Positions 28,647 to 51,996 of a stretch of 51,996 nt of DNA are shown piece after piece. A model generated the notes under the pieces. The model worked only from the letters and a program-made list of their open reading frames with translations, was not told the DNA's origin and made no database searches. The number at the start of each line of letters is the position of its first letter. Positions within the stretch are counted from its first letter, which is position 1. Both the position numbers and the translations under genes were made by a program. Origin of the DNA: Bacteroidaceae bacterium (GTDB lineage Bacteria > Bacteroidota > Bacteroidia > Bacteroidales > Bacteroidaceae); contig JAFZFN010000011.1 of assembly GCA_017555875.1 (NCBI GenBank), positions 1 to 51,996 on the forward strand, written 5' to 3'.

Positions 28647-30305
28647 ATGGGAGTGTTTTTAGTTTACATACTGAAGTCTGCATTTTGCCTCGCGCTGCTC
28701 TACTCGTTCTATCGGCTACTGATGAGCGAGGAGACCTTTCATCGGTTCAACCGCGTGGCACTGCTCGCCTTGTTGGTGATATCATTCGTATTGCCACTGA
28801 TGACATTCGGTGAGAGTCCGTTGATAGAGGTCGGGACGATGGCGATGAACGCAGAGAGTGCCGTGGCAATCGATGCCGCGGATGCGAACATGGTCAGCAA
28901 GCCACTCCTCGACTTCGGTTGGGGGCACGCATTGCTACTCCTTTATATAATGGGCTTCTTGGCTTGCGTCTGCTATCATGCAGTTTCGTACATCCGTTTG
29001 GGAATGTTGTTCCGCAAGACTTATCAAGAGCCATTGTCAGACTATACGGCAGAGCTGCACAAGGCGGGCATCAAACTCTATGTACATGAAGAGGAGCTCT
29101 CGCCCTTCAGTTGGCTCAACTGTATCGTTGTATCGCGCCGAAGCCTCGAGGAGAACGCCCGTGAGGTGCTACGCCACGAGTTGGCACACATCCAGCACCG
29201 CCATTCATGGGACCTCCTGTTGGTGGATGCGTGCACCCTGCTGCAATGGTTCAACCCTGCGGTGTGGCTCCTGAAGCGTGAACTGCGTACACTCCACGAG
29301 TACGAGGCCGACGAGGCGGTCATCAAAGGTGGAGCAGACACGAAGGAATATCAGCGGTTATTAATAAAAGAGGCTGTTGGCACAAGGCTCTACTCTATGG
29401 CCAACAACCTCAACCATAGTTCACTTAAAAAACGTATCACTATGATGCTAAAAAGAAAATCAAATCCGTGGGCACGGTTGAAGTACCTCTATGTACTCCC
29501 GTTGGCGGCAGCATCCGTGGCTGTCTTTGCCCGTCCCGAAGTCTCAAACACATTGGATGAGATTTCAAGTGCCAAAGTTAGTGAATTAACTTCGATTGCG
29601 AAAGCAGAAGAGGTTAAAAGTGTTGAATCGCCCTCTCGGAATAGGGTAAAAGTCTCGGGAAAGGTCGTTGGCGCAAAGAGTGGCAAGGGGCTTGCTGGCG
29701 TAAACATCTTTGCGAAGAACCCCAATGATGGGCGTATCGCTTCGGCGGCCCTGTCACAAAAGGGCGGCAAGTTTGAGTTTGAGACCTACGAGGGGCTTGC
29801 GTTGCAGTTCTCGTTCGTAGGCATGCAAGAACAGTATGTCATCGTGCCTCAAGGCGGAGCTAAGTCGTTGACCGTACAGATGGCCGAGGCTGTACAGGGC
29901 TTGCCCGATATGGTCGTTACGGGTTATGCGCCAGAGACGGTCGAAAATCTTCCTACCAATCTCCTAATCTCCGAAACAAAGAGCTTTAATGGCACCTTTG
30001 TGATCGTGGAAAGCCAACCCGAATTCCCCGGTGGCATGGGCGAATTGATGAGATTCCTACAAAAGAATCTCCGCTATCCCGCAGCTACACAGCAAGCCAG
30101 AGTGCAGGGCAAGGTTATCGTAGAGTTTCTTGTTGGTACCGATGGTAGCATCTCCGACATCAAGGTGAAGCGTAGCGTTAATCCCGAGCTGGATGCAGAA
30201 GCCGTGCGCGTCATCGGCCTGATGCCGAAGTGGAGACCGGGCGAACAGCGCGGGAAAGCCGTATCTGTACGATACGAGATGCCCATCGAGTTTCGTCTGA
30301 AGTAA
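28647..30305 (+). CDS. M56 (BlaR1-like) metalloprotease with carboxypeptidase-regulatory and TonB C-terminal domains
   Basis: A 552-residue membrane sensor-protease. Residues 1-290 hold four predicted membrane helices and the gluzincin core: HELAH (His177, Glu178, His181), with a downstream glutamate in HEYEADEAV. After the last helix (about 282-296) a periplasmic part follows: a carboxypeptidase-like regulatory beta domain (about 335-415: SGKVVGAKSGKGLAGVNI) and a TonB C-terminal domain (about 455-552: YPAATQQARVQGKVIVEFLV, ending YEMPIEFRL). In place of the penicillin-binding sensor of BlaR1 it carries these two modules, so the signal is unlikely to be a beta-lactam. It probably cleaves the adjacent BlaI-like repressor. 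Confidence 0.88.
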   Translation: MGVFLVYILKSAFCLALLYSFYRLLMSEETFHRFNRVALLALLVISFVLPLMTFGESPLIEVGTMAMNAESAVAIDAADANMVSKPLLDFGWGHALLLLYIMGFLACVCYHAVSYIRLGMLFRKTYQEPLSDYTAELHKAGIKLYVHEEELSPFSWLNCIVVSRRSLEENAREVLRHELAHIQHRHSWDLLLVDACTLLQWFNPAVWLLKRELRTLHEYEADEAVIKGGADTKEYQRLLIKEAVGTRLYSMANNLNHSSLKKRITMMLKRKSNPWARLKYLYVLPLAAASVAVFARPEVSNTLDEISSAKVSELTSIAKAEEVKSVESPSRNRVKVSGKVVGAKSGKGLAGVNIFAKNPNDGRIASAALSQKGGKFEFETYEGLALQFSFVGMQEQYVIVPQGGAKSLTVQMAEAVQGLPDMVVTGYAPETVENLPTNLLISETKSFNGTFVIVESQPEFPGGMGELMRFLQKNLRYPAATQQARVQGKVIVEFLVGTDGSISDIKVKRSVNPELDAEAVRVIGLMPKWRPGEQRGKAVSVRYEMPIEFRLK

Positions 30306-35029: not shown

Positions 35030-38000
35030 CTACAGTACCGCCACCTTCTTATTATTCACGATATACACGCCACGTGACGATACAGGCACTACCTCCTTGC
35101 TCATGGGCTTCACGGTCACGCGGTTCACGATCTGTCCACTGAGGCTGTGGATGGTCACTACGGCCTCGTATTCGAGCGTGGACTCAATGTAGATAGCCTC
35201 ACCCTTGCCCCAGATCTTCAATCCACGCTGGAGTATCTCTTCCGTAGGCTCCTCCTCCTGACCCGCATTGCCGATGAGGATATGTCGAGGAGCAGCATCC
35301 GAGGATGCAGACATGTAGGCACGGAAGGGAACGAGAGCACCTGAATATGTAAACTTTTCACCCTTACCATCCAAAACATAGTTGCTTCCGATAGGCTCAT
35401 TGATAAGCGCACCTGTGTAACTATAGTCACCCACCTTAGCCTTCTGTTCAGCCAATGCAACATCGGTGATAGCTATTTTTGCATTGTTCACTGAGACGAA
35501 AGTCACAACTTGAGGAGCGAGCTTGGCTATATCGTCGCCCGTATGTTCGGGTACAAACAGACCTGACATATCAAACTCATAATAGCGCACTCCAGGGAAG
35601 GCCATAATATAGGGCTTGTATGCCTCTATATTGGGATACTTAGGGTATGTACGATACTCTTGCTGATAATAGTCTTGATAGTTATCGCCATTGTCATCCT
35701 TGTCGTCGTTATAGCTATAATAATAATCGTAAAGGAAGGTGTTCTTCACCACCAAAGACTGAGTACCTGCATCAGGACATCTGAAGAGTGCAGATGTTTC
35801 TGTACCTGTGGTGACACTTTCGAGCTCGCGCAACCAATACTCATGATAAGCCGTACTGCCCTCGTAGAAGTGAGTGATCTGACCCTTATCCTGCGTAGTC
35901 GTCATGTCCGCCTCGAAAGGCAAGCACAGTGACTCCCAACCCTTACCTTCACCTTCTGTATAGTGGGCAGGTGTGCGTTGATGCCACATGTAGTAGCCAT
36001 TGTCGAAGGTGTAAGCAATCGGTGCATTGAAATCCTCCTTATCCACCAAGAAATGATGACGTCTAGCGACATAGGATCTATTTCCAGAGCCATCAACTAC
36101 CAGGTCTACCAAGTGTCCATGCACGTTACCTATATTATCCTGCTTACCGAGCTCGTTATATTTATTAACATACTCTTCGCCCACCTTCTTACCGAAGATT
36201 AATACAGGCACATAGAGATCTTTAAGAACGGCATACGAAGCTGCATCGTTGATAGGATCAGCATAGATAAGTAAATTCGAAGTCAAGTCAGTAAAATTCA
36301 CATGCTCCAACCCTTCATAGTCAAGATAGGGACGATAGTCGCCTTCAGTACCCTTATAAACAAAGTCATTATCTCCCGTAAAGTCGATAGCAGTAAGGTT
36401 GCTATGTATCGGCTGCCCGTTGCAGTTATTAGCAAAGTATGCAAAGGTATTGAAGTATACCTTGTCAATCCTCATGCTCTGCTTATAGGCAGGAGCCCTA
36501 TACACGCGATTGCTATTACTGATAACAATGCGCTCTACACCATCGACAAGAGTCTTATCGATACGTCCAGGCAACGACTCATGTACCTCCGTATTCATTT
36601 CTTGTGCCAATACAGGATCTGGCACATAGGTCAATTGTTGACCAAAGAAGATATAATCATCGGGATAAATGGGCACATATGTATGCTTCTCTGCATCGTA
36701 GCGTACATCCATTTCGGTAGGCACTGAGCCATCGGCATACCTAAAGTCACCATTAGCGAAATAAATCTCCACATACTTCATCAGATTATCATCGGATGCG
36801 TCAGTGTTATTTGCGCGGAATCGCTTGTCAAGGTAGAATGCATTGAGCAGGTAGGCCACCTCACCCATATCAAACTCGGCTTGTGACTTCGCAGTACCAT
36901 TACCTCCAGTAACAGTAAAGCCATTGTCTGCACGATAATAACTATTCACGACGGAACCACCGTCACCAATGACAGCCTTACTACCTTCAGGATTGCCAGA
37001 AGTATATACCCAGCAGTTCTCAGCATAGCCACCACTTGGATCTCCGCCATTATCGGCAACACCACCACCAATGAACGAACCTGTCACACCGAGGTTATAT
37101 ACTTCACCGCAGAGATAGCCAAAGAGCGACTCGTCGAGTCCACTAATGGTATAACCATTACCGTGGAAATTACCCGAGAAGCACTTGTCCTTATCACCTA
37201 TTGAGTTCCAGTCAGCATACATCTTCGGAGCAATGTTGCTACGGAGTATAAAGTCCATAAAGTGGCAGTTGCCCACCTTCGTTTGATCCAACCTACCATC
37301 GGTAGTTGCCTTATACAAATCATATAGATAATCGAGGTCATTCTTCTCGCTTCCAGCAGCGATGCTCGTGCTTGCGTATTCTTCGTCATCGAGATAGATC
37401 TTACTGGGCTCCTTCACATCCTCGTGGTCGATGTACATGTACTCATTGACGTCATCTACCTTATGATTCATCACCTCGCCCAATCGGTGATAGTTGGCGA
37501 TGTTGAGAGGCACAGCATTCGAATAGGTACGTCCCAAGTAGGTCTTGGTATAGTAAGCCACGTAGTAACCATTCTGATACCAATACATGCGTGTTGCATT
37601 GTTCTTGTATACCGCACCATTCTGGTGACTCTCGGCATCGGCCTGGCTCTTGTAGATTTCCCAACCAGAGCCAATTACTTCATAAGCACCAGGGATAACG
37701 GCAGGTACCGACAGACCAATCACCGAGTTGGGCAACACGGTACCAGGCTCAGCAAGTGTGCCGATAGTGGGCTGACCATTGCGGAACTGGATGTTTACAT
37801 TTACGATATGTCTCTCGACACGAACATCGTGCGTACCATCCGCCTTAGGTTCATTGTAGCGATACTTATATGCGACTGACACCACACGGTCCTTGCTCAG
37901 GTTGTAGATATCTGACTCACGAGGTACATACAACTTAGCCGTAGCCAGAGTGGGAACATTTTCGATCACGAAGTCCTTCTGATCGTTTTTCAGGGCGTTA

Positions 38001-41000
38001 TACTCATCCTGTGTCTTTATCGTACCTTTAGATACTGACTGTTTTCCATCGGCACTACGATAGACCTCTGCACAATAGTAATAGGTGCCTTCAGTACCAA
38101 ATGTCTTGGCCTCACATTTAGCTTTATGATCAGTGGATAGGTCTTCATATACATCATTAGGTACGACCTTTCCGATGTAGTAGATTACGTTAGCGTACTC
38201 AAACTCTTCGCTCGCGATATGATAAGTACCTGGGGTTTTCACGTTTACAGGTTCGTAATGCGACTGCTCGTTTAAGATGAGTTCAAACTCGGCACGATTC
38301 AGCACTGTTCCATTGGTGATATCATAGCCTACGTAACCCGTACCTGTAGCATCCAGCTTAGCCAATTTCTTATTCTTGCCAGTATAAGTCGCGCTGAAGT
38401 TCACGTCTAGGTTCTCATAGAAAGGCTCATGATACAACGTAAGATCCTCACTAAAGTCTGTGCTGAAGAGATCCAAGGCATCATAATTATAGGTAAAGTT
38501 TACGCGTTGGTCGCTAGGCAGGCTCACATATTTCAGTGCATCACAGTTGACTCCTTTCTCGAACTCCTTACCTCCATAGAGACCCGATTGAGTACATACA
38601 TAAGCCTCACTGAAATAATCCTCCACATCAAAGTCTAGCGCTGCCAGCTCTTCGTATCGTGTTGCCGAGATGAGTTCACCATTAAGAATAAAGACCTTAT
38701 CCTCTACTTCGATGGTGTTGGCACAATAGTATGCACGCTCAAATTTTCCCTTGGCGGTATCGTCGGGGTTAATTTTTCCAAAGATGGTGGCATCAATGTA
38801 ACTACCAGCAAACACCGTACGTGTCGTAGCGTCCACCGTCGTGAAGGTCACGTCTTCGGTAGCAATATACGCAGCTTCAAAGATTGCTGCATCCGTATAT
38901 TTGTCAGCGACACGTTGATGTTCTTCATATATAGCTTTACCTATCAAGTCCTCTTCAGTATAGCTCTGCTGACCATACACGCCTCCTTTATTACAGAGGA
39001 AGGTAGGTGGTGTTTTATCCCAATCCAACGGATTGCTCATCACATGGTTGAGCACATATCCCGCATCTTTGGACATCTCATTAGAGATACGGAACACCTC
39101 CTCAGTCTTAGCATCTAGTGTCAAGAGATTCTGGTAGGCATTGGGCAGCAACACTTGTCCTGTCTTGTAAGACATACCATTGAGGATAGCATCCGTTATG
39201 GCCACATAGGTCACAGGGACGAAGTGCTTCTTCTCCTGAGTTGTCAGCTGTGAATACTCCCAATCGCTGATAGGATCATTGAGCTGATACTCCTTACCAT
39301 CTATCTGTATGCTTTCGCCAAGTTTCAACACCTGATAGTCGTTCTGGCTGTTATAGGTTTTATAGTAGGTATACCAGTTGGGTTGCACACTGAGCATCTG
39401 CATCTCACCATTTGACTTCTCCGAGAAGGGCAGCGGAACGGTTATCGAGTTCACGAACGTCTGTGCCGAACCAGCATAGGCCGAAACTACCAGCGTATGC
39501 AAATAATAGTCTCCTCGGATATACCAGTAGTGAACTCCCTCAGAGAACATGTCATCGACAATATGCTTTTCGGAATGAATAAAGTTACCCGAGGTCTGCA
39601 TGGGCTGAATTTCGCTCTGGTTGTATGTAAATGCAGACTGCGTAATGGCTTCTTGGTTGGCATCAGAGAGGACAAACTGCTTTGCCAATTCAGGTTTAAC
39701 TTCCGAGCGTTTACCATATTCCTTCTTGGCATAGACATAGCCACCGCCTTCACCCGTAGCAGCATTGATGAGGTCAAGTTCGAGCACGCCCGTGATAGGG
39801 CCATACACCTTATTGCCATTAGCATCGAGCTCCTTCACCAGTTCAAGGTACACGCCCGAGGCTTGAGCGACAGTGTGTAATGCCTCACCTCTGTTGCGGA
39901 GGTCGTTGCCCAGATTTGTTTCCTTGTATTCGTAGTATGAGGTAGCATCGCTATGATTCTCATCGAACATCACGTCTGAAGTGAATGCACCGAGGAAGTT
40001 GGCCACATTGTAGATACCGAAGTAAGTGCCATGGATAGTGCCACCGACAATCTCCCTATTCAGAGAGATCTCTCCCACACGGTTGATAGCGTAGTTGGTG
40101 TAGTCCACCTTGTCGGGCACACGGTCTTGCGCTCCGTGCAGCAGCACACGGCTACCGAAGATACCGCAGAAGTCGGCACGCTGTAGCGTATTGATCATAC
40201 GTCCATCGAGACGGCGATAGATTTGGTCGTTCACAGCATCCTTGTTCAGTTCGTAGAACGCCTTATCGCGAGCCGACAAGTCTGAATAAGTAGCTTCGTC
40301 GATGGTCGACGCCAAGTAGTCATGCGATGTGCCATAGTTGGTGAGGTTCAGCTCGCGGTATCCATCCACGAAGGTGAGGTTACCATCACCATAGAGTCCA
40401 CCGATGTGCTCACCACCTATATTAATAAGGTCTTTGTCAAAAGCGTCGACCACAGCAGCCGTAGCGTTACCATATACGGTCACGGCATTGGCATACACCA
40501 CGTCACTACCTGAGCTCACGTTACCTCCTGCAAAGACTGCATTGTAGATGGTCACGCCCTCATCGTCGAGCGACTCCCATCGAGCATCATTATGGGGGAG
40601 CAGGTCCAAGTATTCGGTAGGGACGTAAGAGCCCTTCTCGAAGGTCTTATCACCAATTTGCACGTCTTCCAAAGCCAAACATCTCACGCTGATATGCACA
40701 CGGCAATCCTCGCTTCGCTCTGAGTAGCTATTATCGGTATAGTAATGTCCATTGATTTTCGCGGTTGCCTTATCGGTTGCATCCGTATACTTAACACCTG
40801 CGCTGTAGACATAACCGATGTTACCGCCACCGAATACGTTTCCACGTCCTTCGAGCAGAGTCTCTGCTGTACCGATAGTGCCACGATAGATTTCCACATC
40901 GGTCTTACCAAATACATATCCATCGGTATACAAACGTGTGGTCTTGTAGGGAGAATCTTCACCAGTATAAGTATGTGTATAGGTATATCCGCGACCGCCA

Positions 41001-44000
41001 CCAAAGACATCGCCCATCACCAATCCGCCATAGATGCGCACCTGTGCAGAGCCAGGAGTTGTGATAGTTGCTTTGCTTCGGCCTAGTGCAGTCACACTAC
41101 CCTCACCCACAGCAGCAATCTCACCACCGCCATAGACGCTATTGCGTACGGTACCACCATAAAGGTTCACCCATGTGTTGATAGCTATAGCCCCTTCACC
41201 ATATCCAGCACCGTAGACATTTCCCTCGTCCTCAAACTCACGCACGGCAAGGTCATCATCGAGGTCGAGCACGGGATGATAATCTCCTATCGGAGTAGCC
41301 GCCTTGCCGATACCTGCATATTCGTATCCGATGTAGCCGTTATACATGTCTACAGTAGATGTTCCACTGACTGTGGCGCGCTCGCTACCACCATAGACGT
41401 TACGCTGAACGGCAGGGATACCATAGTAGAAGGTGAGTCCATTGTGGTCACGGAGTTGAGGAGCAAGCGAAGAGCCTGCGTCGACCTCATCCTCAGGGAA
41501 CACATTGGTAAACTCTTCCGATGGCAGCGGTTCGACAACACCTATGATAACGTGTGTATTTCCCTCGATGCCGCCATTGAGACCGCCACCAAACACCTTA
41601 CGTACCTGTCCGCCCAAGATGCGGCATTCCGTGCCGATGGTCTGCTTCTCGCCTGCTATGTATCCAAGCACACCAGCTTTCATGCGAGGCATGTCACCTG
41701 CGTCACCACCGCCATAGATATCCTGCTTCACAAGACCTCCGAGCAGGTCCACGCGAGTCTCACCAGCCACATAAGCTGTGATACCCTCACCGCCACCAAA
41801 GGCCGTTTTCTCCACCACAGCACCCTTATGAATGATGATGTGTGTATTCTTCGTGTCATCGTCCAGAATCTTGGGAGCCGTCGCATCGGGCTGTATCTTG
41901 CCGTTGATCCAGTTGGCATGACGATGAGGTGCTTTGCTGTAGTAATCGGCAATGGCGTACGCCTCAGAGTCCTTATCATCGACTGATGGTTGGTAGTAAT
42001 TGTAGTGGTTATACACCTTACCCTCCTTACCGCCACCATACACATGCGCCACTTGTGCTCCATCCTTGAGGTCAATGCGGGTGAATCCGGCTACCGTAGC
42101 AGCACCATATCCACCACCATATACCGTCTGCAGGTTGCCCACCTTATTTCTGAGGGGCACATTGAGCGTGATTCGCGTCTCTGCCGTGGCACGTGCATTG
42201 TTGTTACCACCGAAGAGACCCAGTTCGACGGATGCATCGGCCGACTCGTAGTTGATCTCCGAGATACCCACGTCGCACGGGCGACGCTCCTCTTCACCCA
42301 TACCACCACCAAAGATGGCATGGGCCTGTATGGTCGACCCTGCGGGTACGTTGATTTCCGTCGCCAAGGTATATCCTTCGGTGAAGGCACCGCCATGCAC
42401 ATCATACACTCTACCACCATAGAGGTTGATGACCGCCTTGTCGGTACCACTGTTGGCACCAGCTCCGAAGACATTAGTCAAATCATATTTCATGCCCTCA
42501 TAATAGTTGATGAGGGTGTTGCCTACATTATAAGCCACGTTATCCTTCGTGCTCACCGTCTTCACACCATGTGTGCCACCGAAGATGCGCTCCACGGTAC
42601 CCGAGTAGGCGTCGATACGTGTGTTGTGCACCAATGAGAGGTTACCACCACCATATACGCGGTAAGCCATGGGTGCCTCATCGGTACGCTGTGTGTAGTC
42701 GGTACCATTGATGAGCACATAGGTCTGGTTGACCGTCACATATCCAGGTAGGTTGGCATATCCGCGTCCACCGCCCATGACACCCGTGATGGCCGTGCGA
42801 TCGACAAATGCAGCATATCCGATGACATCTTTTGTGTCACGCGACTTCGAATCGATATGCACGAAGGTGTTAGTTGCGATGACGTCAACGTCGTCGCTCT
42901 TAATCTCCGTAGTGAAGGCTGGGCTACCATTAGGATCACCCCTACTATAAACTCCTCTTTCATTATAGTCGTAACTACCATACGAGCCACCATAGACAGC
43001 CTTCTCGATGGTACCGCTGAGGTATTGCAAGTAGGTTTGCGAGAGCACCTGCATGGTCTTGAAGCTACCATCGGGCAAGGTCACCTTGATGTCGCGCTTG
43101 GTCTCACCTTTGATTTGTCCACCAAAGTCATTACCACCAAACACTGCGTTGGCCACATAGGGTTTACCATAGTTATACTGGTCACCCTCTTCGTCGCGGT
43201 AGCCCACGATAGCAGTCGTATATCCTTCGATGTTGGCATTACAAGCACCGGCAAAAGCACGTAGCACACCACCAGCGTGGAGGTTGAGGGTCGAGTTGCC
43301 TTTTACAGGACCTGCATAGCCCGCGCCATAGGCCTTATAGACATTGATTTTGGGAGCTATACTATAGTCGGGGTCAGCAGGGAACAGCATATCGGGGTCG
43401 AAGTATACCTCCGTGCTGCCAGTCACCACACCCTGTTCTCCACCACCGAAGGCAAGCAATACGCTGGCCTCCCCTGTGAAATTGATCAGCGTGTTACCGC
43501 GCACCTCAGAGTTTGCTCCAAAGCCTGCGCCATAGACAGCCAAAGCGCTGCCGTACACATCCTCACCCGTAGCCAAGAGGATATCTTTCGCTTTGAAGGT
43601 CTCACCATCCACCACGATATTGGCATCAAACACGTCGGGGTGAATGAGCGGCTTGCTGATATTGATGACCGTACCACCATTGATGATGCCACTATTGAAG
43701 CAGCCACCATAGATGTTAGCTTTCTGGAAGGTACGGCTGGCCTTTAGTTGGTTGTCGTATGTCTCGTATCCTATGATATCGGTCAGGTCCCAATCCAGCA
43801 CGAATTTTCCATCCCTGTTGACCAATGTCTTTGGGATCAGGTAGGCATTCACGGTGAGGTTCACCTTCACGTTGGTCTGCTTGCCCACGGTCCCTGTACC
43901 ACTACCTGTCACACCACCCTCGTAAGCCGCGTTGTATGCACTCTCTCTAACGTTGGCATCGTTACATCCGCCCACCACCTTCTCGTAGATGACTACGTCG

Positions 44001-45802
44001 CGCGGCACGGTGATGTTGGCCATGCCCTCATAGGTCATGCTACCCTTGTTGCCACCGAAGATAAGCGAGCCGATGAAGGTCTGCTGCTCAAGGTTCTCTT
44101 CCCATTGGAGCTGCGGCTTGATGTTGACCGCCACACCATCCATATAGCGCTCCATCTGATTCTCGTCAGTGAGGTCGATGTTGCTGTATTTGGTGCCAGC
44201 ATCTACGGCCTGGTACTTTGCCAACATCCCGGGAGTCACCATATTGACACCATTACTGCCGAGGAACACGCCATTGATGATGACATGCTTGCCTATCTTG
44301 AATGTAGACTTAGCTTCTGCCTGGTTGCCTTCCTTGGCCAGCGTAGCACTGTTACCACCGCAATAGACATCGCCTGTCACCACGACTCTCTTCTCCTCAC
44401 TTCCAGAGATGTGCACCAAGGTGCTCTCCACGTGGGGGCGATGGTGATAGAGCGCCTCCACAGAGCTATCATAGTCACCGATGCTATAGAGCAGGTCAGC
44501 ATCTTCGGGATGCTTGGCTACCCAAGCTTCGTTGTCAGTATAGGCATAGGAGCCGTTACCGCCACCATAGACATTGCCTATCAAGCCACCATGGATGTCC
44601 ACATTACTGCCGTGGTACACGGTGCCCGCGATATCGTTACCGCCATAGACGTTGTTGACACGGCCTGCGGTGATATACACACGGGTGGCATAGCCGGCTT
44701 GGAATTTGTGTCCGTAGAGTTCCTCCTCCTTCAAGTCGGGATCACCATTGGCACCAGGGTTCACGTCGGCAATACGGCATCCGCCATAGACGTTGTTGGC
44801 ACTCAGGTCGTCGCTCTGGATGGGCAAGATGATACCGCTGGGATGCCTCATCTCTCCGCGGTTACCTCCCGAGTAGATGTTGTTGACGGTCATCTTCTTC
44901 AGATGCCATGTGGGGCGTATGTCCATTGACTCCACATTGTTACCTCCAAAGAGACAGCCAACGTGGAAGTCGAAGTAGACAGCTCCGTTGCGGTGCTCGT
45001 GATGCTCCTCATCAAATGCGACATCACTGGCATCCTCTTCTGAAATATAGTGGAGATTATCATTGAGTGCTGTAGCGTTATCGGCATAGATGGTCGTACT
45101 TGCTGTCACGGTAGCTTCGTTACCACCGCCAAACACATGGCTATAGATACCACCACCCAGCTCAATATAGGTACGATCCAATTCAGGGCGATTGCTTACA
45201 GTAGCAATCACCGTGTGCGCATTGTCTCTTTGCTTGACGGTGTATGTGCCTTTCTCGTCGTCATAGTCATAGTCGTAAGCACCGTTACCACCACCATAGA
45301 GCGAACCGATAATCATCGGATACTGTGTGTTCGGCGTAGCATACAGTACGGCATTGAGCGAAGATTTCTCAAGTGACGGAGCTTTGGGTTTAAAAGGCTG
45401 TTCGCTTGTGCCTACCGTGAGTTCGCTTGTGCCTACCGTGCCGATGGTACCAGCGATATCATTACCACCATATACGGCATTTACCAACAGTTTTCCAGTT
45501 TGGCCCGCTCCATCGATGTTCACATAGGTATGTCCCTCCACATCGGCCATACGTGCACCACCATACACACTACCCTTGATACTACCAGCTTTGAGCACCA
45601 CCTTGGTGCTACCCTCAGCAGTCTCACTCTTCTTCAGGTCACCTACGTTACCGCCACCATATACGTTACCACCGATAACGATTTCGGCAGTGGCTTGTGT
45701 GGGTAGTATCAGTGACGTCAATATAGAGATAGCGAGCAGCACTGCGCATCGCAGTGCGCCGTGCCTCGCCGTATGGTTATATGTGGTGCTATGTGTCATC
45801 AT
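35030..45802 (-). CDS. Giant secreted VYGGG-repeat protein with T9SS-like C-terminus
   Basis: The longest gene here, about 3,590 residues (roughly 390 kDa). Starting at 45802 gives a signal peptide (CAVLLAISILTSLILPTQATA); an in-frame ATG at 45847 is the alternative. In the 45847 frame: residues about 56-1830 hold about 40 copies of V-[YF]-G-G-G/N, each preceded by a GG.v..V turn and followed by A.V.G.t.v.i strands, as in beta-solenoids. Residues about 1725-2620 carry about nine degenerate copies of a 'G..Y..G..i...eY..L...dq..F' repeat. A GLUG-like segment lies near 2890 (SGNFHGNGYTISGLDESLFG), a GWESLCLPFEADMTT motif near 3304. The last 70 residues (VVTIHSLSGQIVNRVTV, RGVYIVNNKKVAVL) resemble a T9SS type A sorting domain. 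It ends the fimbrial operon. A surface adhesin is the likeliest role. Function is undescribed as far as I know. Confidence 0.85.
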   Translation of the reverse strand: MMTHSTTYNHTARHGALRCAVLLAISILTSLILPTQATAEIVIGGNVYGGGNVGDLKKSETAEGSTKVVLKAGSIKGSVYGGARMADVEGHTYVNIDGAGQTGKLLVNAVYGGNDIAGTIGTVGTSELTVGTSEQPFKPKAPSLEKSSLNAVLYATPNTQYPMIIGSLYGGGNGAYDYDYDDEKGTYTVKQRDNAHTVIATVSNRPELDRTYIELGGGIYSHVFGGGNEATVTASTTIYADNATALNDNLHYISEEDASDVAFDEEHHEHRNGAVYFDFHVGCLFGGNNVESMDIRPTWHLKKMTVNNIYSGGNRGEMRHPSGIILPIQSDDLSANNVYGGCRIADVNPGANGDPDLKEEELYGHKFQAGYATRVYITAGRVNNVYGGNDIAGTVYHGSNVDIHGGLIGNVYGGGNGSYAYTDNEAWVAKHPEDADLLYSIGDYDSSVEALYHHRPHVESTLVHISGSEEKRVVVTGDVYCGGNSATLAKEGNQAEAKSTFKIGKHVIINGVFLGSNGVNMVTPGMLAKYQAVDAGTKYSNIDLTDENQMERYMDGVAVNIKPQLQWEENLEQQTFIGSLIFGGNKGSMTYEGMANITVPRDVVIYEKVVGGCNDANVRESAYNAAYEGGVTGSGTGTVGKQTNVKVNLTVNAYLIPKTLVNRDGKFVLDWDLTDIIGYETYDNQLKASRTFQKANIYGGCFNSGIINGGTVINISKPLIHPDVFDANIVVDGETFKAKDILLATGEDVYGSALAVYGAGFGANSEVRGNTLINFTGEASVLLAFGGGEQGVVTGSTEVYFDPDMLFPADPDYSIAPKINVYKAYGAGYAGPVKGNSTLNLHAGGVLRAFAGACNANIEGYTTAIVGYRDEEGDQYNYGKPYVANAVFGGNDFGGQIKGETKRDIKVTLPDGSFKTMQVLSQTYLQYLSGTIEKAVYGGSYGSYDYNERGVYSRGDPNGSPAFTTEIKSDDVDVIATNTFVHIDSKSRDTKDVIGYAAFVDRTAITGVMGGGRGYANLPGYVTVNQTYVLINGTDYTQRTDEAPMAYRVYGGGNLSLVHNTRIDAYSGTVERIFGGTHGVKTVSTKDNVAYNVGNTLINYYEGMKYDLTNVFGAGANSGTDKAVINLYGGRVYDVHGGAFTEGYTLATEINVPAGSTIQAHAIFGGGMGEEERRPCDVGISEINYESADASVELGLFGGNNNARATAETRITLNVPLRNKVGNLQTVYGGGYGAATVAGFTRIDLKDGAQVAHVYGGGKEGKVYNHYNYYQPSVDDKDSEAYAIADYYSKAPHRHANWINGKIQPDATAPKILDDDTKNTHIIIHKGAVVEKTAFGGGEGITAYVAGETRVDLLGGLVKQDIYGGGDAGDMPRMKAGVLGYIAGEKQTIGTECRILGGQVRKVFGGGLNGGIEGNTHVIIGVVEPLPSEEFTNVFPEDEVDAGSSLAPQLRDHNGLTFYYGIPAVQRNVYGGSERATVSGTSTVDMYNGYIGYEYAGIGKAATPIGDYHPVLDLDDDLAVREFEDEGNVYGAGYGEGAIAINTWVNLYGGTVRNSVYGGGEIAAVGEGSVTALGRSKATITTPGSAQVRIYGGLVMGDVFGGGRGYTYTHTYTGEDSPYKTTRLYTDGYVFGKTDVEIYRGTIGTAETLLEGRGNVFGGGNIGYVYSAGVKYTDATDKATAKINGHYYTDNSYSERSEDCRVHISVRCLALEDVQIGDKTFEKGSYVPTEYLDLLPHNDARWESLDDEGVTIYNAVFAGGNVSSGSDVVYANAVTVYGNATAAVVDAFDKDLINIGGEHIGGLYGDGNLTFVDGYRELNLTNYGTSHDYLASTIDEATYSDLSARDKAFYELNKDAVNDQIYRRLDGRMINTLQRADFCGIFGSRVLLHGAQDRVPDKVDYTNYAINRVGEISLNREIVGGTIHGTYFGIYNVANFLGAFTSDVMFDENHSDATSYYEYKETNLGNDLRNRGEALHTVAQASGVYLELVKELDANGNKVYGPITGVLELDLINAATGEGGGYVYAKKEYGKRSEVKPELAKQFVLSDANQEAITQSAFTYNQSEIQPMQTSGNFIHSEKHIVDDMFSEGVHYWYIRGDYYLHTLVVSAYAGSAQTFVNSITVPLPFSEKSNGEMQMLSVQPNWYTYYKTYNSQNDYQVLKLGESIQIDGKEYQLNDPISDWEYSQLTTQEKKHFVPVTYVAITDAILNGMSYKTGQVLLPNAYQNLLTLDAKTEEVFRISNEMSKDAGYVLNHVMSNPLDWDKTPPTFLCNKGGVYGQQSYTEEDLIGKAIYEEHQRVADKYTDAAIFEAAYIATEDVTFTTVDATTRTVFAGSYIDATIFGKINPDDTAKGKFERAYYCANTIEVEDKVFILNGELISATRYEELAALDFDVEDYFSEAYVCTQSGLYGGKEFEKGVNCDALKYVSLPSDQRVNFTYNYDALDLFSTDFSEDLTLYHEPFYENLDVNFSATYTGKNKKLAKLDATGTGYVGYDITNGTVLNRAEFELILNEQSHYEPVNVKTPGTYHIASEEFEYANVIYYIGKVVPNDVYEDLSTDHKAKCEAKTFGTEGTYYYCAEVYRSADGKQSVSKGTIKTQDEYNALKNDQKDFVIENVPTLATAKLYVPRESDIYNLSKDRVVSVAYKYRYNEPKADGTHDVRVERHIVNVNIQFRNGQPTIGTLAEPGTVLPNSVIGLSVPAVIPGAYEVIGSGWEIYKSQADAESHQNGAVYKNNATRMYWYQNGYYVAYYTKTYLGRTYSNAVPLNIANYHRLGEVMNHKVDDVNEYMYIDHEDVKEPSKIYLDDEEYASTSIAAGSEKNDLDYLYDLYKATTDGRLDQTKVGNCHFMDFILRSNIAPKMYADWNSIGDKDKCFSGNFHGNGYTISGLDESLFGYLCGEVYNLGVTGSFIGGGVADNGGDPSGGYAENCWVYTSGNPEGSKAVIGDGGSVVNSYYRADNGFTVTGGNGTAKSQAEFDMGEVAYLLNAFYLDKRFRANNTDASDDNLMKYVEIYFANGDFRYADGSVPTEMDVRYDAEKHTYVPIYPDDYIFFGQQLTYVPDPVLAQEMNTEVHESLPGRIDKTLVDGVERIVISNSNRVYRAPAYKQSMRIDKVYFNTFAYFANNCNGQPIHSNLTAIDFTGDNDFVYKGTEGDYRPYLDYEGLEHVNFTDLTSNLLIYADPINDAASYAVLKDLYVPVLIFGKKVGEEYVNKYNELGKQDNIGNVHGHLVDLVVDGSGNRSYVARRHHFLVDKEDFNAPIAYTFDNGYYMWHQRTPAHYTEGEGKGWESLCLPFEADMTTTQDKGQITHFYEGSTAYHEYWLRELESVTTGTETSALFRCPDAGTQSLVVKNTFLYDYYYSYNDDKDDNGDNYQDYYQQEYRTYPKYPNIEAYKPYIMAFPGVRYYEFDMSGLFVPEHTGDDIAKLAPQVVTFVSVNNAKIAITDVALAEQKAKVGDYSYTGALINEPIGSNYVLDGKGEKFTYSGALVPFRAYMSASSDAAPRHILIGNAGQEEEPTEEILQRGLKIWGKGEAIYIESTLEYEAVVTIHSLSGQIVNRVTVKPMSKEVVPVSSRGVYIVNNKKVAVL
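45400..45440 (-). repeat. 21-bp tandem duplication in the giant gene
   Basis: GTTCGCTTGTGCCTACCGTG occurs twice with a 21-base period, in frame, giving the protein a doubled VGTSELT-type segment (residues about 136-150). Perfect identity suggests a recent slippage event. Confidence 0.85.
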
Positions 45803-45850
45803 CTTGTTCCTGTTCTGAAAGTTCTTGCTCTGCTCTACACATCTCAACTC

Positions 45851-46843
45851 CTACTCTACCACCAGCGCATCGCTATCCAGATCTCCATCGGAGAGGACGT
45901 AGAGATAGCTGGGTACGAGGGGGATATAGAGTTTGTAATTGGTTGCTTCACTCAGCTTTCCGCTAATCTTCTTGATGCTGTTCTCGGCCACGGCGTCGGG
46001 TCGTGTGAGGTTGCCCTTGGCATCGTAGACGTCGTAGGTGACGCGCATCCTCAGGCCAGAGATCTCCATCTCGGGGCAGAAGTAGCAGGTGCTGGGCGCT
46101 TTGGCATTGGCCTTGCCCTGTTGCTCGAGGACAACAGGGCTCTCGGTCTCTTCATAGAAGGTCACCGCACTGGCCATCTCGGCACCCTCGGACCAAATTG
46201 TCGTGTGTGTGGCAGAGGGGTCGGTGGCAGAGGGGTCGGTGTAGGTTACCGTGGCGGTGTAGGCTTTGTTGGGGTGTATGAACTCCACCTTCTTGATCTT
46301 GATGGTGCGCAGCTTGGCATACTCCGCATCGTTGATGTAGAAGTAGGGTGTCACGCGGGCCATCAGGTGGTCCATCTCGAGGTATATATCTTTTTTATCT
46401 ACTCCATTACTGATGGTTACCTGTTCTGGCTTTATCACCATGGCGTTGCTGGCGCTCATGCCCGCCAGGCCAGGCAGTGTCATGACAAGGTCGTCCTTAT
46501 CAAATGTAGCGCCACTGTTATAGGGCATGTATCCATAGATGGTGTAGGCACCCTGCTCGAGCTTGAGCGAGGTGGTGAGTGTCTTGCCGTTCCACACGAG
46601 TGTAGAGGGGGTGACGTAGTTGTTGCCCTCGTAGCTGGCATGCACAAACAGTCCTGCGGTGAAGCTCGGATGCGAAGCGTCGATGTTGGCATAGCCACGG
46701 CTCACCACTCGCTCCTCTTGCATGTAGGCGCGGAAGTTCACGCTGCAAGGCCCCACGTAGGGCTCCTCCTTGCGACACGATGCCAATGTCAAGGTCAGCA
46801 ATGCTATGCTAGCTGCTATGTATATCTTTTTCACTTTCATCAT
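45851..46843 (-). CDS. FimB/Mfa2-like fimbrial lipoprotein
   Basis: A 330-residue lipoprotein: MMKVKKIYIAASIALLTLTLASC gives the lipobox Cys, followed by a FimB/Mfa2-type beta-sandwich pattern (VNFRAYMQEE near the N-terminus; GAYTIYGYMPYNSG; KKDIYLEMDHLMARVTPYFYI; NYKLYIPLVPSYLYVL). Mfa2/FimB proteins anchor and limit the length of the fimbria in the outer membrane, which fits its place after two fimbrillin genes. It could also be a minor tip subunit. A DPSAT pentapeptide is duplicated through a 15-bp DNA repeat. Start at 46843 (or 46840) is chosen for the signal peptide; the longer frame would overlap the previous gene. Confidence 0.75.
   Translation of the reverse strand: MMKVKKIYIAASIALLTLTLASCRKEEPYVGPCSVNFRAYMQEERVVSRGYANIDASHPSFTAGLFVHASYEGNNYVTPSTLVWNGKTLTTSLKLEQGAYTIYGYMPYNSGATFDKDDLVMTLPGLAGMSASNAMVIKPEQVTISNGVDKKDIYLEMDHLMARVTPYFYINDAEYAKLRTIKIKKVEFIHPNKAYTATVTYTDPSATDPSATHTTIWSEGAEMASAVTFYEETESPVVLEQQGKANAKAPSTCYFCPEMEISGLRMRVTYDVYDAKGNLTRPDAVAENSIKKISGKLSEATNYKLYIPLVPSYLYVLSDGDLDSDALVVE
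46209..46238 (-). repeat. 15-bp tandem duplication in the Mfa2-like gene
   Basis: GTGGCAGAGGGGTCG is repeated twice without change, adding a second DPSAT unit to the protein. In-frame and probably recent. Confidence 0.85.
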
Positions 46844-46871
46844 CTTTTTCTTGATCCGAGATATTTCTTCC

Positions 46872-47858
46872 TCACCAGTTATGCTTGTCATCTTCATCCA
46901 CCTCGATGTCCTGCCCATCCTGCACCTCTATCCACTGCTCGATTTCGAGCGAGGGTTCGATGACGGCTCCTTGGCCCAACGAGAGGGTGAGCACATAGCG
47001 CTTGCCCGCCTCCAGCTGCTTGATGCCCGTGTCGGCCGTACCCTCAGATGAGTTTCCATTCGCGGTATAGCCCACCTCCACTAGTATGTTGCTGCTCCCT
47101 TTGAAGGGCACTACCAGATGCTTGGCGCCTGGCGTAGCCTCGGGGTTACTAGTAATCTCCTCGCCCGCATTGCTGTATGCGTTCTTCGATGCAGCGGACT
47201 CGACACCGCTCCATGTCGAGCTAGCAGGTGTGGTGTAGTCGAGGGTATAGGTAGCCGTACCATCGGCAGTGGGCACGTTCTGATACGTCAGCGATGTGAG
47301 CTTATAGGTATTTTGGAACGAGGCGCTGCGCACGACTCTTACTACGAGCTGGGCGTAGAGGTGATTGAAGGTGAGGTCCACCTGTCCGCCATACGTATTG
47401 AGATAGGTGGTGGCTGCTCCCTGCGAGGTGGCCACCACAACATCGGTCTCTTTGCCATCGATGAGTTGCCACTGGGGCAGGGTGATGGTGAGTGTGCGTG
47501 TGTCATCATTGTGCGTGTAGCTGCATCCGTTCTGTTCGGTTGCAGGGGCGTAGGCAGCAAAGTAAAATATAGCAGAGGAATCCCAATACTTCTTGGGGGT
47601 GTACTCCCATGCACTACCATTAAGAGTGACCAACTGGTTTGCAAACACCATTTGGCTTACTGGGCCTTGCTTGTAGCCATATACGGCAAACTCGCTGAGG
47701 TCGTCGGCATCTTCGATGAGTGCACGTGTCACCGACTGTGCAACCATGCCGATAGCATGCTGCTCCACATTCGGGTCGCTCGGGTGTGAGTTTCTGTTGC
47801 AACCCTGCAGGGTGAGGGCAGCCATACCTATAATATATATATATGTACGTGCGCGCAT
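46872..47858 (-). CDS. Fimbrillin-family lipoprotein (accessory subunit)
   Basis: A 328-residue exported lipoprotein: MRARTYIYIIGMAALTLQGC provides the lipobox. The mature protein has the fimbrillin pattern: a strand with TRALIEDADDLSEFAVYGYK, IFYFAAYAPA, the central TFNHLYAQLVVRV, and a C-terminal KRYVLTLSLGQG strand followed by an acidic tail (DIEVDEDD). 'HxxA/SxV/LxV' after 'F/L-x-F' is typical for FimA/Mfa-like subunits. It probably forms a minor or tip subunit. Start at 47858 avoids translating through the hairpin at 47881-47912. Spacing to the next gene is 28 bases. Confidence 0.78.
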   Translation of the reverse strand: MRARTYIYIIGMAALTLQGCNRNSHPSDPNVEQHAIGMVAQSVTRALIEDADDLSEFAVYGYKQGPVSQMVFANQLVTLNGSAWEYTPKKYWDSSAIFYFAAYAPATEQNGCSYTHNDDTRTLTITLPQWQLIDGKETDVVVATSQGAATTYLNTYGGQVDLTFNHLYAQLVVRVVRSASFQNTYKLTSLTYQNVPTADGTATYTLDYTTPASSTWSGVESAASKNAYSNAGEEITSNPEATPGAKHLVVPFKGSSNILVEVGYTANGNSSEGTADTGIKQLEAGKRYVLTLSLGQGAVIEPSLEIEQWIEVQDGQDIEVDEDDKHNW

Positions 47859-47880
47859 CGTTAGTTTTTTCTTTCGTAGT

Positions 47881-47912
47881 AGCCAAGTGGGGACATTCAA
47901 CCCCACTTGGCT
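47881..47912 (-). terminator. Intercistronic hairpin after the main fimbrillin gene
   Basis: AGCCAAGTGGGG and CCCCACTTGGCT form a perfect twelve-base stem with an eight-base loop, between the fimbrillin stop (47935) and the next start (47858). No U-run follows, so partial termination or protection of the upstream mRNA is likelier than full termination. It would give more major subunit than accessory proteins. Confidence 0.65.
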
Positions 47913-47934: not shown

Positions 47935-48882
47935 TTAGTTCTCGATAGTCTTATCTACATCAGTTGTTGTCCAACCAGTTGTCATTGCAGCGCTGAACTC
48001 AATGTAAGCAGCACCTACTGTGAAATTGAAAGTAGTGTGTGTGTTTTGTGCCAAAACCTGGCTAGCAACCTCTACAGGCTTCTCATACTCCAAAGCACCG
48101 ACCTTATAGGTCAATAGGAATGTCAACGTTGCTGTTTGAGGAACAATGAGGAAAGACGCTGCATCATCTGTCGCAGTAGTAGTAGCATTGTACACACCTG
48201 CTCCTGCATTGTAAACATCAGTATAGTCCGCTGTACCATCACCAGTAATCGTCCATGTTGGAGTAGCATTGCTAGCGAATGTACCGGCACCAGTCTTCCA
48301 ACCTTTCATTTGGATTCTGTTAATTGTAACATCCGCACTACCAGTTACAGTTACAGAAACTTTAGACATGATGTGCTTGAAATCCAAGGTTACCAATCTC
48401 GCTGCGCTTGAAGGGATAGTTTGAGTCTCTGCTACAAGATAATCTGTAACGTCTGCAGCATAACCCGACTGAGCGCCACCAATAGAATACACACCTTCAT
48501 GGCTGAGAGAACCTGTAGCTGTTTGGGGGGCAATAGCACCAAACAAGTAAGTCTTATCTTCTTCCCAGGGTTTCAAGGTTGTTTCATCATGAGCATAAGA
48601 CCACTTCAGTGTCCCTTCTACGGTAACCCAATCCACATTGTCACCATTAAAGACAACATCTTCGGCGGTGGAACCAGTGTAACCCCAAACATTGAAACCT
48701 ACATTCTTCAAAGCATCAAGGTCTGCAATCTCAGCACGAGTTGACTTACCAGCAAAACCCTCAAAACCGATGGTCTGAGAGGCATTGCTCTCTACAACAG
48801 CAGCTTCGTTAACGAAGTCTGTCTGTGAGCATGCTGCGAACATGGTTGCAGCAGCTGCCATCAAAAAATAACTCTTTTTCAT
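47935..48882 (-). CDS. Fimbrillin-family protein, probable major subunit
   Basis: A 315-residue lipoprotein precursor: MKKSYFLMAAAATMFAACSQ with lipobox Cys18, then an N-terminal region (SQTIGFEGFAGKSTRAEIADLD) where Arg49 is a plausible gingipain-like processing site as in FimA/Mfa1. Fimbrillin markers are VWGYTGSTAED, YLFGAIAPQ, LDFKHIMSKVSVTV and the closing TTFNFTVGAAYIEFSAAMTTGW. The protein is rich in Thr, Ala and Val, with few charged residues. The gene looks less GC-rich than its neighbours, consistent with high expression or a separate history. First of two fimbrillins and the one followed by a strong hairpin, so it is the best candidate for the shaft. Confidence 0.82.
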   Translation of the reverse strand: MKKSYFLMAAAATMFAACSQTDFVNEAAVVESNASQTIGFEGFAGKSTRAEIADLDALKNVGFNVWGYTGSTAEDVVFNGDNVDWVTVEGTLKWSYAHDETTLKPWEEDKTYLFGAIAPQTATGSLSHEGVYSIGGAQSGYAADVTDYLVAETQTIPSSAARLVTLDFKHIMSKVSVTVTGSADVTINRIQMKGWKTGAGTFASNATPTWTITGDGTADYTDVYNAGAGVYNATTTATDDAASFLIVPQTATLTFLLTYKVGALEYEKPVEVASQVLAQNTHTTFNFTVGAAYIEFSAAMTTGWTTTDVDKTIEN

Positions 48883-48974: not shown

Positions 48975-50159
48975 TTAAATTTCAATCTCGACATTCTCAT
49001 CATTCTCCCATTGACTCACAGTGGGACTAAATCCTCCTGTAGGTTTATGGTTGATGATGCTATCAGGTATCTCCTTGGTGACATCGAGGAGTATGGTGAT
49101 GACACCTCCAGTGGGGTGCTGCTGCATCTGTTCGGTGACGTTGCTCTGCATGACGTAGGTGATGCCATTGTGCAGGCGCAGTCCTATGCCGAGGTAGGTA
49201 GAGTCCTTCACCATCACCTCCTCACCTCGGGTGAGGGCCCGCATGGGCACGATGCCTGGGAGTCCCCAGGTCTGCACACGAGCACCGATGATGTCGGCCA
49301 CGGTGTCGGTGCCGTCGGGCAGCGTCACAGCATGCTCCAGAGCCATGGGTGCGACAAGGTCTTGCGTGAGCGACACGGGCGTGTCGTGGGTCTGCCCCGT
49401 GAAGAGGTCCACGCCAGCAGCCAAGCCGTTGGCGGTGATACCGCTGTAACTGGTCACGATGGTGTCGCCCTTGTCGGTGCGGTTGTTCTTGAGGATGACC
49501 TGATATAGATATATATAGGTGTAGGGCTGCAGCGAAGCCTCCATCTTGCAGACATAGGTGACTGAGCCATCTTCGTTGCGCTCGATGATGTAGTCTTCGG
49601 GGTCGTCGGAGATGTAGATGTCATCGATGAGCGTGCCGAAGAGCTGGTCGGGCTCGTTGTAGCCCACCTGACTACGGGTGTACTTGGCACGCGAATTGGT
49701 ACGTGTGGTGACATTGAAGGTGGCAAAGTCGCTATTGTTCTGGCGGTGCTCCTCACGGTCGGTGAAGTGGATCCACTCGGTGTCGTCGTTGTAGAGGAGC
49801 ATGTCGTAGTACTCCTTCGTGGTGAGCTGCACGCGACCTCCCTTGTTGCTGACGTGGCGGTCATAGTGCCAGCGGAAGCGCTCCATCGCGTCGTCGAGCT
49901 GATAGGCGATGACATGCACACCTGTAGGCTCGGTGTAGCCGATGGGGCCATACTTGGCCTCGTCCCAAGGATATTGCCACTGCGTCTGCCAGTCCATTCC
50001 CCACAACATCTCGAGGCGGAGGTCAAACTCGGCCGTAGCGATGCTGACATTACCATGCTGCACCAGATAGAGCGGCTTGCGCTGGCAACCGGTGATGAGG
50101 CTCGTGAGCAGCAGGACTACGAACAACATGGGGGCGATATGTCGGGTGAAACGGTTCAC
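48975..50159 (-). CDS. DUF5119 family lipoprotein of the fimbrial operon
   Basis: A 394-residue lipoprotein. The start is GTG at 50159: it supplies the basic n-region (MNRFTRH) to the hydrophobic stretch MLFVVLLLTSLITGC with its lipobox. The mature protein matches DUF5119 (YLVQHGNVSIATAEFDLRLEMLWGMDW, GVHVIAYQLDD, YIYLYQVILKNNR), a Bacteroidales family found in fimbrial clusters and predicted to be a fimbrillin-like two-domain beta protein. It could be an assembly or anchor protein. A heptamer-repeat region of about 120 bases precedes it. Confidence 0.82.
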   Translation of the reverse strand: MNRFTRHIAPMLFVVLLLTSLITGCQRKPLYLVQHGNVSIATAEFDLRLEMLWGMDWQTQWQYPWDEAKYGPIGYTEPTGVHVIAYQLDDAMERFRWHYDRHVSNKGGRVQLTTKEYYDMLLYNDDTEWIHFTDREEHRQNNSDFATFNVTTRTNSRAKYTRSQVGYNEPDQLFGTLIDDIYISDDPEDYIIERNEDGSVTYVCKMEASLQPYTYIYLYQVILKNNRTDKGDTIVTSYSGITANGLAAGVDLFTGQTHDTPVSLTQDLVAPMALEHAVTLPDGTDTVADIIGARVQTWGLPGIVPMRALTRGEEVMVKDSTYLGIGLRLHNGITYVMQSNVTEQMQQHPTGGVITILLDVTKEIPDSIINHKPTGGFSPTVSQWENDENVEIEI

Positions 50160-50281: not shown

Positions 50282-51541
50282 TTACTTTTTTACTCTTTTA
50301 TATATAAGGTCATAGCTGAGGGTGACGCCAGCTCCTGTAGGACCGAACCAACGGAGGCGGTGGTTGCGGGGGATGAAGTCCTCGGGCATGCCTTCCCAGT
50401 CGTGGTAGTACTTGCCGTTGAAGGGGTCGCTGGCATGGTAGGGGTCGTAGAGGGTCTGGTAGTAGCCGAAGCGCACGAAGGCATCGAGCTTCCAGCGCTG
50501 GTTTCTCCAGGGTTGCCACACGTAGCCGAGGCCGAGGCCTGCGCCCCACCCTTCGCCCTGCCAAGCGTCTTCGGCATTGAAGCTGAAGTCGTAGAGGTTG
50601 ACTTGGCCATAGGCCGAGAGGTAGTAGCCGGTGGGGTGCGTGTTCTTGTCAAAGTAGCGACGTGCCTCGACGCTGCCATCGAGCAGCTGGAAGTAGTGAT
50701 GGCTCTGGTCGTGGCTCCACCAAGGGAAGGTATAGCTGGCTGCGAGGGTCCAGCGCGAACGGGGGATGTAGTACTCCACGCCGACGTTGAGGGCGGTGCC
50801 AAGGTCGTAGAGGAGGTTGGTGCGCACATTGAGCACGGGGTCGCGCTGCACCTCGAGGTAGATGGCGGGAGCGGGGAGCTCAGCGGGGCACTGCGACACC
50901 TCGGTGGGAGCGGGCACCGTAGCAAGGGGCATGTCGATGGGGGCATCGAAGTAGATGATGCAGAACACCGAGTTACGGATGCGGGGATAGTAGGTCTGCA
51001 AGAGGTAGCGGTAGATGGGGAGCTGCTGCATGCGCCACTTCTTGGTGCCTATGCTGATGGTGTTGTCATCGATGATGCGCAGCACCTGATCGATGGTGCT
51101 CTGCTTCATGCGCTTATCGGCCACTACATATTCGCGGAGGCGGTCCCACGACTCTCCGTCGGGGTGCACATGGAGGCGGTCGGTGAGCTCGGGATGGCGC
51201 TTCATAAGTGTGCGGCGCATGGTGGCGGCACGGCGCTGCGAGAGCTTCATGTTGTGCTCATAGACACCCTCGGGCGATGACTGCGACACGATGACTACGG
51301 AGTCTATCATGTGGAGGCCAATGGAGTCGATCACGCGGGCAAAGTCGGCGAAGGACTCGCGGTTGCCCATATAGTCGAGGTCGAGCTGCGACTTGTCGAA
51401 GCGGAAGTGCACCTCGATGCCCATGAGACTCTTCTGCCGCCCGTGCTTGACGGACGACTGCGCACTGGCCGTGGCCACTCCAGCAAGGAGTAGCAGCAGC
51501 AGAGCGAAGACTCTCACGGTTTGTCTCATAGCGCTTGTCAT
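50282..51541 (-). CDS. OmpA-like/DUF3575 outer-membrane protein, first gene of the fimbrial operon
   Basis: A 419-residue outer-membrane protein with a signal peptide (VFALLLLLLAGVATASAQ). Residues about 40-130 resemble an OmpA peptidoglycan-binding domain (VHFRFDKSQLDLDYMGN; SSPEGVYEHNMKLSQRRA). The C-terminal half (about 235-419) is a DUF3575 beta-barrel (RTNLLYDLGTALNVGVEYYI, YGQVNLYDFSF, GWGAGLGLGYVWQP, ending LSYDLIYKRVKK). Such proteins lead many Bacteroidales fimbrial operons and may support assembly at the outer membrane. ATGs at 51541 and 51529 are both acceptable starts. A consensus promoter lies about 95 bases upstream. Confidence 0.85.
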   Translation of the reverse strand: MTSAMRQTVRVFALLLLLLAGVATASAQSSVKHGRQKSLMGIEVHFRFDKSQLDLDYMGNRESFADFARVIDSIGLHMIDSVVIVSQSSPEGVYEHNMKLSQRRAATMRRTLMKRHPELTDRLHVHPDGESWDRLREYVVADKRMKQSTIDQVLRIIDDNTISIGTKKWRMQQLPIYRYLLQTYYPRIRNSVFCIIYFDAPIDMPLATVPAPTEVSQCPAELPAPAIYLEVQRDPVLNVRTNLLYDLGTALNVGVEYYIPRSRWTLAASYTFPWWSHDQSHHYFQLLDGSVEARRYFDKNTHPTGYYLSAYGQVNLYDFSFNAEDAWQGEGWGAGLGLGYVWQPWRNQRWKLDAFVRFGYYQTLYDPYHASDPFNGKYYHDWEGMPEDFIPRNHRLRWFGPTGAGVTLSYDLIYKRVKK

Positions 51542-51635
51542 CGTGCTCGTTATTCTCTTTGTTTACAACCTCTTGGATGTGCGCAACGCCGCTTGCGTAC
51601 GTACGCGCAGTCCTTATTTAGTATAGTTTAGGGTG

Positions 51636-51889: not shown

Positions 51890-51914
51890 TTGATACACGA
51901 AACAGGTCGCAAAC

Positions 51915-51938: not shown

Positions 51939-51996
51939 AAAATGTGCACACGCATCATCATCGACCCAGCGATGCTCACATTTTTTTATTATATAT

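Follow-up and report, generated by a model that had tools for sequence, protein, structure and literature searches.

The giant gene and its operon

We have analysed a window of 51,996 nucleotides (nt), contig JAFZFN010000011.1 of a Bacteroidaceae bacterium (assembly GCA_017555875.1), that carries a gene for a giant protein with a glycine-rich VYGGG repeat. The initial annotation had placed an open frame at 35030..45847; this frame is present, on the (-) strand, and is uninterrupted over 3,605 amino acids when counted from its TTG. An in-frame ATG at 45802 opens a signal-peptide-like stretch (MMTHS...PTQATA, then EIVIGG), and the gap between the end of the upstream gene and this ATG is 48 nt. 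For these two reasons we have adopted it as the likely start, so that the giant gene occupies 35030..45802 (-) and encodes 3,590 amino acids. Full-length relatives align with the protein from end to end, and relatives start with comparable signal-peptide-like stretches. Residue numbers are counted from this ATG; those of the initial annotation are 15 higher. The probable Sec signal peptide (45686..45802, (-), residues 1-39, ending PTQATA before EIVIGG) is a prediction made by eye, and inspection of the sequence revealed no lipoprotein cysteine after it.

The giant gene is preceded on the same strand by a run that begins with a gene for a DUF3575 protein (50282..51541, (-), E = 5e-21, with a sub-threshold OmpA match at E = 0.0018) and continues with a gene for a DUF5119 protein (48975..50159, (-), E = 2.2e-11). 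These are followed by two fimbrillin genes of the Mfa_like_1 family, at 47935..48882 (-) (E = 2.5e-17) and 46872..47906 (-) (E = 3.4e-21; referred to here as gene -2), and by a fimbrillin-like gene that adjoins the giant (gene -1; 45851..46918, (-)). The gene -1 protein ends in PSYLYVLSDGDLDSDALVVE and matches Pfam Mfa_like_1 at E = 1.9e-5, scoring 25.3 bits where the cut-off is 27. Judged by the families that it encodes, this run is a type V (FimA/Mfa-type) fimbria operon, with the giant as its last gene.

The arrangement is conserved. Thirty more loci were fetched from the ranked family hits, as a rule with the strongest first and not at random; L053 (genome G238) was taken to be the same contig as L015 and was not counted, and L016 starts inside the giant gene and has no upstream sequence. 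In all 34 family loci with upstream sequence, a gene of the same protein family as gene -1 lies directly before the giant, and leave-one-out profiles recovered each of the 34 at E < 1e-5 (worst, 4.2e-46). For gene -2, the alignment included 32 of the 34 frames (L019 and L081, which have long called frames without the usual YNW end, were excluded), and 30 of the 32 tested were recovered in the same way; L066 and L080 failed. Pfam names in the gene -2 family (n = 32) were Mfa_like_1 (10), FimA (8) and Mfa2 (3), and the gene -1 and gene -2 families are related to one another (profile comparison, 98.0%, E = 1.7e-13). Two other families of the order contributed four loci, and the same gene pair precedes the giant in all four. 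No PDB match was found for gene -2; gene -1 had two weak ones, to sucrase-isomaltase (E = 0.13) and to the fimbrial protein BF1861 (E = 0.84), and these are not used as evidence here.

The family was traced with a probe that included a highly conserved core (39443..40405, (-), residues 1800-2120, GLYGDGNLTFVDGYRELN ... QRADFCGIFGSR), which follows the repeat region. This core probe detected a giant in 62 of 399 family genomes, in 9 of 30 genera and in 27 of the 207 good-quality genomes. Order-wide, 5/295 genomes were positive, comprising the window's own and four from two other families, and a search of genome contigs in which 46 stretches were tested confirmed one relative. One of the relatives, L015, comes from a Bacteroidaceae metagenome-assembled genome from water-buffalo cecum. 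Relatives are conserved over their whole length, with a mean majority share of 0.35-0.76 per 100 residues that peaks over residues 1801-2000 and a second time around 2601-2800. The alignment used for the family scan held 12 of 33 near-complete giants; another omits L065, L080 and L081, in which the matching stretch is short.

On either side of the operon there are minor features. Upstream, near the contig end, the window contains a run of GATGAC units (51913-51941). The sole long inverted pair found there (51535-51574 and 51901-51940, 75%) overlaps this run, and its candidacy as an invertible promoter was rejected as a chance match. Downstream, several relatives have a gene after the giant on the same strand (for example, L019:15-1283), often of 380-650 amino acids; the one that was scanned gave weak PKD matches only.

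Repeats of the giant and their predicted fold

The glycine repeat is genuine and far above chance. The strict form V[YF]GG[GN] occurs 13 times in the giant, compared with a mean of 0.08 and a maximum of 1 in 300 shuffles, and the relaxed form [VILA][YFLM][GCSA][GA][GNCSH] occurs 36 times, compared with a shuffle mean of 2.3 and a maximum of 7. The repeat region (40523..45664, (-), residues 47-1760) holds 34 of these 36 loose motifs, with a smallest common step of 25-28 residues; the two beyond it are probably chance occurrences. The initial annotation had counted about 40 copies of V-[YF]-G-G-G/N, a figure that the strict motif does not bear out and that only the degenerate motif, with its 34 copies in the region, comes near. 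The nearly identical pair that it had singled out, VNAVYGGNDIAGT and VNNVYGGNDIAGT, is present, at a spacing of 275 residues and not 290.

Repeat statistics were compiled over 35 giants, drawn from the window's own genome and its relatives; contig ends cut some of these proteins short. Motif pairs lie 24-29 residues apart in 252 cases, compared with 91.6 expected under random placement; since the 35 proteins are related, these pairs are not independent. The excess supports the rung-like order of strand and turn that had been proposed for the region. Between successive loose motifs, 279/1190 gaps measure 23-31 residues, the commonest single gaps being 27 (73 cases), 28 (57) and 25 (47), and the profile of the 279 short units is VYGGGNEADVTGRTTVNLDGGTVRVDN. 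Within the repeat region of the window's giant, gaps range from 9 to 116 residues; therefore, if the region is a solenoid, long loops must interrupt many of its coils. Glycine makes up 103 of the 193 invariant residues of the repeat region, which also include 9 Asp and 4 Glu. At the DNA level, no tandem repeats were detected apart from one perfect 21-bp doubling, inside the giant gene at window positions 45400-45440, early in the repeat region.

No Pfam or NCBIfam family scored above its cut-off in the repeat region; with Pfam extended to an E value of 10, only PT-VENN (E = 1.9) and the beta-solenoid family FapA (E = 1) appeared, both at chance level. Neither a single-sequence nor a profile search found a PDB sequence relative of the giant. 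These results agree with the earlier statement that no characterised protein with this repeat was known to its author. Among the titles and abstract openings listed in a literature search, whose coverage leaves out most subscription journals, there was no description of the giant or its repeat, and the text string 'VYGGG' matched papers whose titles treat other subjects.

As the initial annotation had suggested, the fold was examined with AlphaFold. Residues 41-727 were modelled (the first 687 of the mature protein, covering no more than the initial portion of the repeat region) from 5 aligned sequences, giving a mean predicted local distance difference test (pLDDT) score of 74.3 and a predicted template modelling (pTM) score of 0.82; over five models the mean pLDDT spanned 61.5-74.3. 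The model contains 251 strand, 61 helix and 375 other residues. At 12 of the 13 loose motifs in the modelled stretch, the first two residues are in strand and the next three are in a turn, an arrangement found at 5.7% of random positions. Past the turn, the model often has a short strand, followed by a longer strand at TxVxI. Our first criterion, that a motif should lie in or beside a strand, held for 13/13 motifs; it was a weak one because 73% of random positions also pass, and it was dropped in favour of the stricter strand-to-turn test.

A strand-rich fold is therefore supported by one model, in which the motifs run from strand to turn in a way that fits a solenoid, and we consider it likely that the repeat region forms a solenoid-like beta rod. 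The long right-handed beta-solenoid that the initial annotation had proposed is supported in part, as far as a solenoid-compatible fold; in the model, 103 of the 687 residues have a pLDDT below 50. This low-confidence fraction, the small number of sequences behind the model and the very uneven motif spacing in the window's giant would also suit a chain of separate small beta domains. We regard such a chain as unlikely, given that the pTM score applies to all 687 residues, that the strand-to-turn order far exceeds its random frequency and that the smallest common step, 25-28 residues, corresponds to one coil.

A strand-rich, coiled model invites comparison with enzymes, since beta-helices are common in polysaccharide enzymes, and the giant could be envisioned as a carbohydrate-active beta-helix, a relative of polysaccharide lyases or hydrolases, displayed on fimbriae. 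Pfam and NCBIfam gave no enzyme family and the PDB gave no relative; moreover, the dominance of glycine among the invariant residues resembles a scaffold rather than an active site, without excluding one. An enzymatic beta-helix is thus highly improbable in our estimation.

The initial annotation did not mention a second repeat, which differs from the VYGGG repeat and fills part of the other half of the protein. It is about 31 residues long (consensus, YVCTEDGTYGGKYYAAGTVISADEYNSLTND), and the window's giant has seven copies in a stretch at 37982..40672 (-) (residues 1711-2607). The profile was seeded with pieces from the window and refined twice on the same giants, and the shuffled proteins were scored with it as well. 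It found 157 copies in the 35 giants and none in 35 shuffled proteins (independent E value < 0.01); because the profile was built and refined on the giants themselves, this count is not an independent test.

Probable export, likeness to Mfa5 and a possible place at the fimbrial tip

At its C terminus, the giant has a match to the type A sorting domain of the type IX secretion system (T9SS) (Por_Secre_tail, TIGR04183; 35054..35194, (-)). The match is weak in this protein, where it falls below the curated cut-off (E = 0.018 and 15 bits; E = 8.4e-4 and 20.5 bits in a scan of its own genome), and clearer in relatives: 8 of 12 full-length giants, the window's included, match TIGR04183 at E values up to 0.1, the best being 5.8e-7. 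A loose C-end pattern, GVYIVN..K (G-[VITM]-Y-[VIL] ... K), which was written after inspection of the sequences, is present in 33/33 intact C-ends. The genome that carries the window encodes SprA, GldM and a PorU-type T9SS sortase, together with 11 further sorting-domain candidates besides the giant. SprA was detected in 61 of the 62 giant-bearing genomes, compared with 249 of 337 others (Fisher p = 7.9e-7, with relatedness ignored and the lists compared by eye).

With a signal peptide (by eye), a sub-threshold sorting domain and T9SS genes in the same genome, the giant has the features of T9SS type A cargo (Por_Secre_tail proteins); unlike such cargo generally, it is encoded in a fimbrial operon, is unusually long and has a domain score below threshold. 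These export signals support the earlier description of the giant as a surface protein, and we conclude that it is very probably a surface protein that a type V fimbria operon encodes and the T9SS exports.

A protein with some of these properties has been described from the Mfa1 fimbria of Porphyromonas gingivalis, and we compare it here on the basis of two papers (PMC8313007 and PMC7835359). The genes mfa1 to mfa5 are consecutive, and Mfa5 is carried to the outer membrane by the T9SS (PMC8313007); antibody labelling with gold places it at the fimbrial tip (PMC7835359). Mfa5 and the giant are alike in that the gene follows fimbrillin genes and the product is large and has a signal peptide and a C-terminal T9SS domain (PMC8313007, PMC7835359). 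The giant occupies the Mfa5-like position, closing a run of type V fimbrillin genes; it has 3,590 amino acids, compared with mfa5 genes of 2946-6615 bp (PMC8313007). Unlike Mfa5, it has the VYGGG repeat, and it is conserved over its whole length among relatives, whereas the Mfa5 genotypes together share just the C-terminal half (PMC8313007). That half and the sorting domain are common to all of them; the von Willebrand part is confined to genotypes A-C and is lacking in genotypes D and E (PMC8313007). The giant has no sequence match to any PDB chain, and the PDB includes part of Mfa5 (PMC7835359).

Based on the operon, the export signals and this likeness, we favour, by some margin over an even chance, the view that the giant is an accessory protein of a type V (FimA/Mfa-type) fimbria, exported by the T9SS, and most likely a tip protein. 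The analogy tips the balance slightly towards a location at the fimbrial tip itself. It can be imagined that the T9SS would export the giant to the cell surface, where its C-terminal half would attach to the fimbria by way of the two fimbrillin-like subunits whose genes lie just upstream. The first half would fold into a long beta rod with some 34 coils, and loops on the rod may bind mucus, plant fibre, another cell or a surface of that kind. If each coil rises by 0.48 nm, such a rod would be near 16 nm long.

The sorting-domain match and the PorU-type sortase in the genome would also be at home in a second scheme, in which the giant is T9SS cargo that stands on its own, anchored to the surface once the sortase has cleaved it and co-expressed with the fimbria but outside it; in addition, Pfam finds no fimbrillin-type domain in the giant itself. 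Free-standing cargo would leave unexplained why the same fimbrillin-like gene adjoins the giant in 38/38 loci with upstream sequence, and Mfa5 provides a precedent for T9SS cargo that ends in a fimbria (PMC8313007, PMC7835359). We consider this scheme rather doubtful. The initial annotation had proposed a candidate new class of surface beta-solenoid; the novelty of the repeat stands, and an Mfa5-like accessory or tip protein of a fimbria, built on that repeat, is a better description than a new class standing by itself.

Several observations weigh against a fimbrial accessory protein exported by the T9SS. Both sorting-domain scores of the window's giant (15 and 20.5 bits) are lower than the NCBIfam cut-off of 23 bits, and the Pfam sorting-domain model matches only 1 of the 12 giants (E = 0.024). 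In a control, 4/14 unrelated genomes gave sorting-domain matches at E values up to 0.05, one of them above the cut-off; matches at about the 0.05 level are consequently not specific. One giant-bearing genome (G028) has no SprA match, with GldM and the sortase present. T9SS cargo may also be anchored alone, without a fimbria. Of the 34 gene -1 proteins, Pfam assigns Mfa_like_1 to no more than 5, and three unrelated names also occur among the 34, once each. The giant is absent from most relatives (62/399 genomes positive), though many of these genomes are incomplete. Finally, searches of the giant revealed neither a von Willebrand domain nor any other adhesin domain with a name (Pfam up to E = 10, in five pieces; PDB), and because of this result we do not class it as Mfa5; the likeness is one of position and export signal.

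In the papers cited here, the tip of a type V fimbria has been described for P. gingivalis. If the giant is a tip protein, it would be a conserved marker for fimbriae of many other Bacteroidales with a T9SS-delivered business end, and it would provide a defined protein and gene pair for asking what such bacteria hold on to. The repeat, which no Pfam or NCBIfam family covers at present, would become a new named beta scaffold. More tentatively, and as a possibility that we rate below the tip location itself, two systems may combine in one appendage: the T9SS would deliver a beta rod of some 34 coils that caps a type V fimbria, and such rods would form a distinct, undescribed adhesive-tip repeat family that occurs in three or more of the order's families.

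Other proteins with giant-like features

Two genes for giants, at about 80 kb and about 112 kb, lie on contig C10 of genome G263. This recalls P. gingivalis, in which some strains have two mfa5 genes (PMC8313007). Contig C50 of G266 and contig C18 of G371 contain frames of 6,303 and 6,358 amino acids, respectively, that match part of the core probe and are larger, more distant relatives.

The motif also occurs outside the giants. The window's own genome (contig C7) encodes a second VYGGG-type protein (L020:3885-9005) of 1,706 amino acids, which the giants' repeat profile matches four times and whose frame ends inside the repeat region. In L015, a large protein (L015:21738-24968) with immunoglobulin-like and chitobiase C-terminal domains is encoded a short distance downstream of the giant and is cut by the end of the locus; it has terminal YGGG-like motifs by eye, below the reporting threshold of the repeat profile. 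The repeat motifs of these VYGGG-type proteins are similar to those of the giant, but the proteins carry Fn3_assoc and chitobiase C-terminal domains, of which the L020 protein has both.

Elsewhere in the window, 28647-30302 encodes a BlaR1-type M56 peptidase protein with TonB C-terminal and carboxypeptidase-regulatory-like domains.

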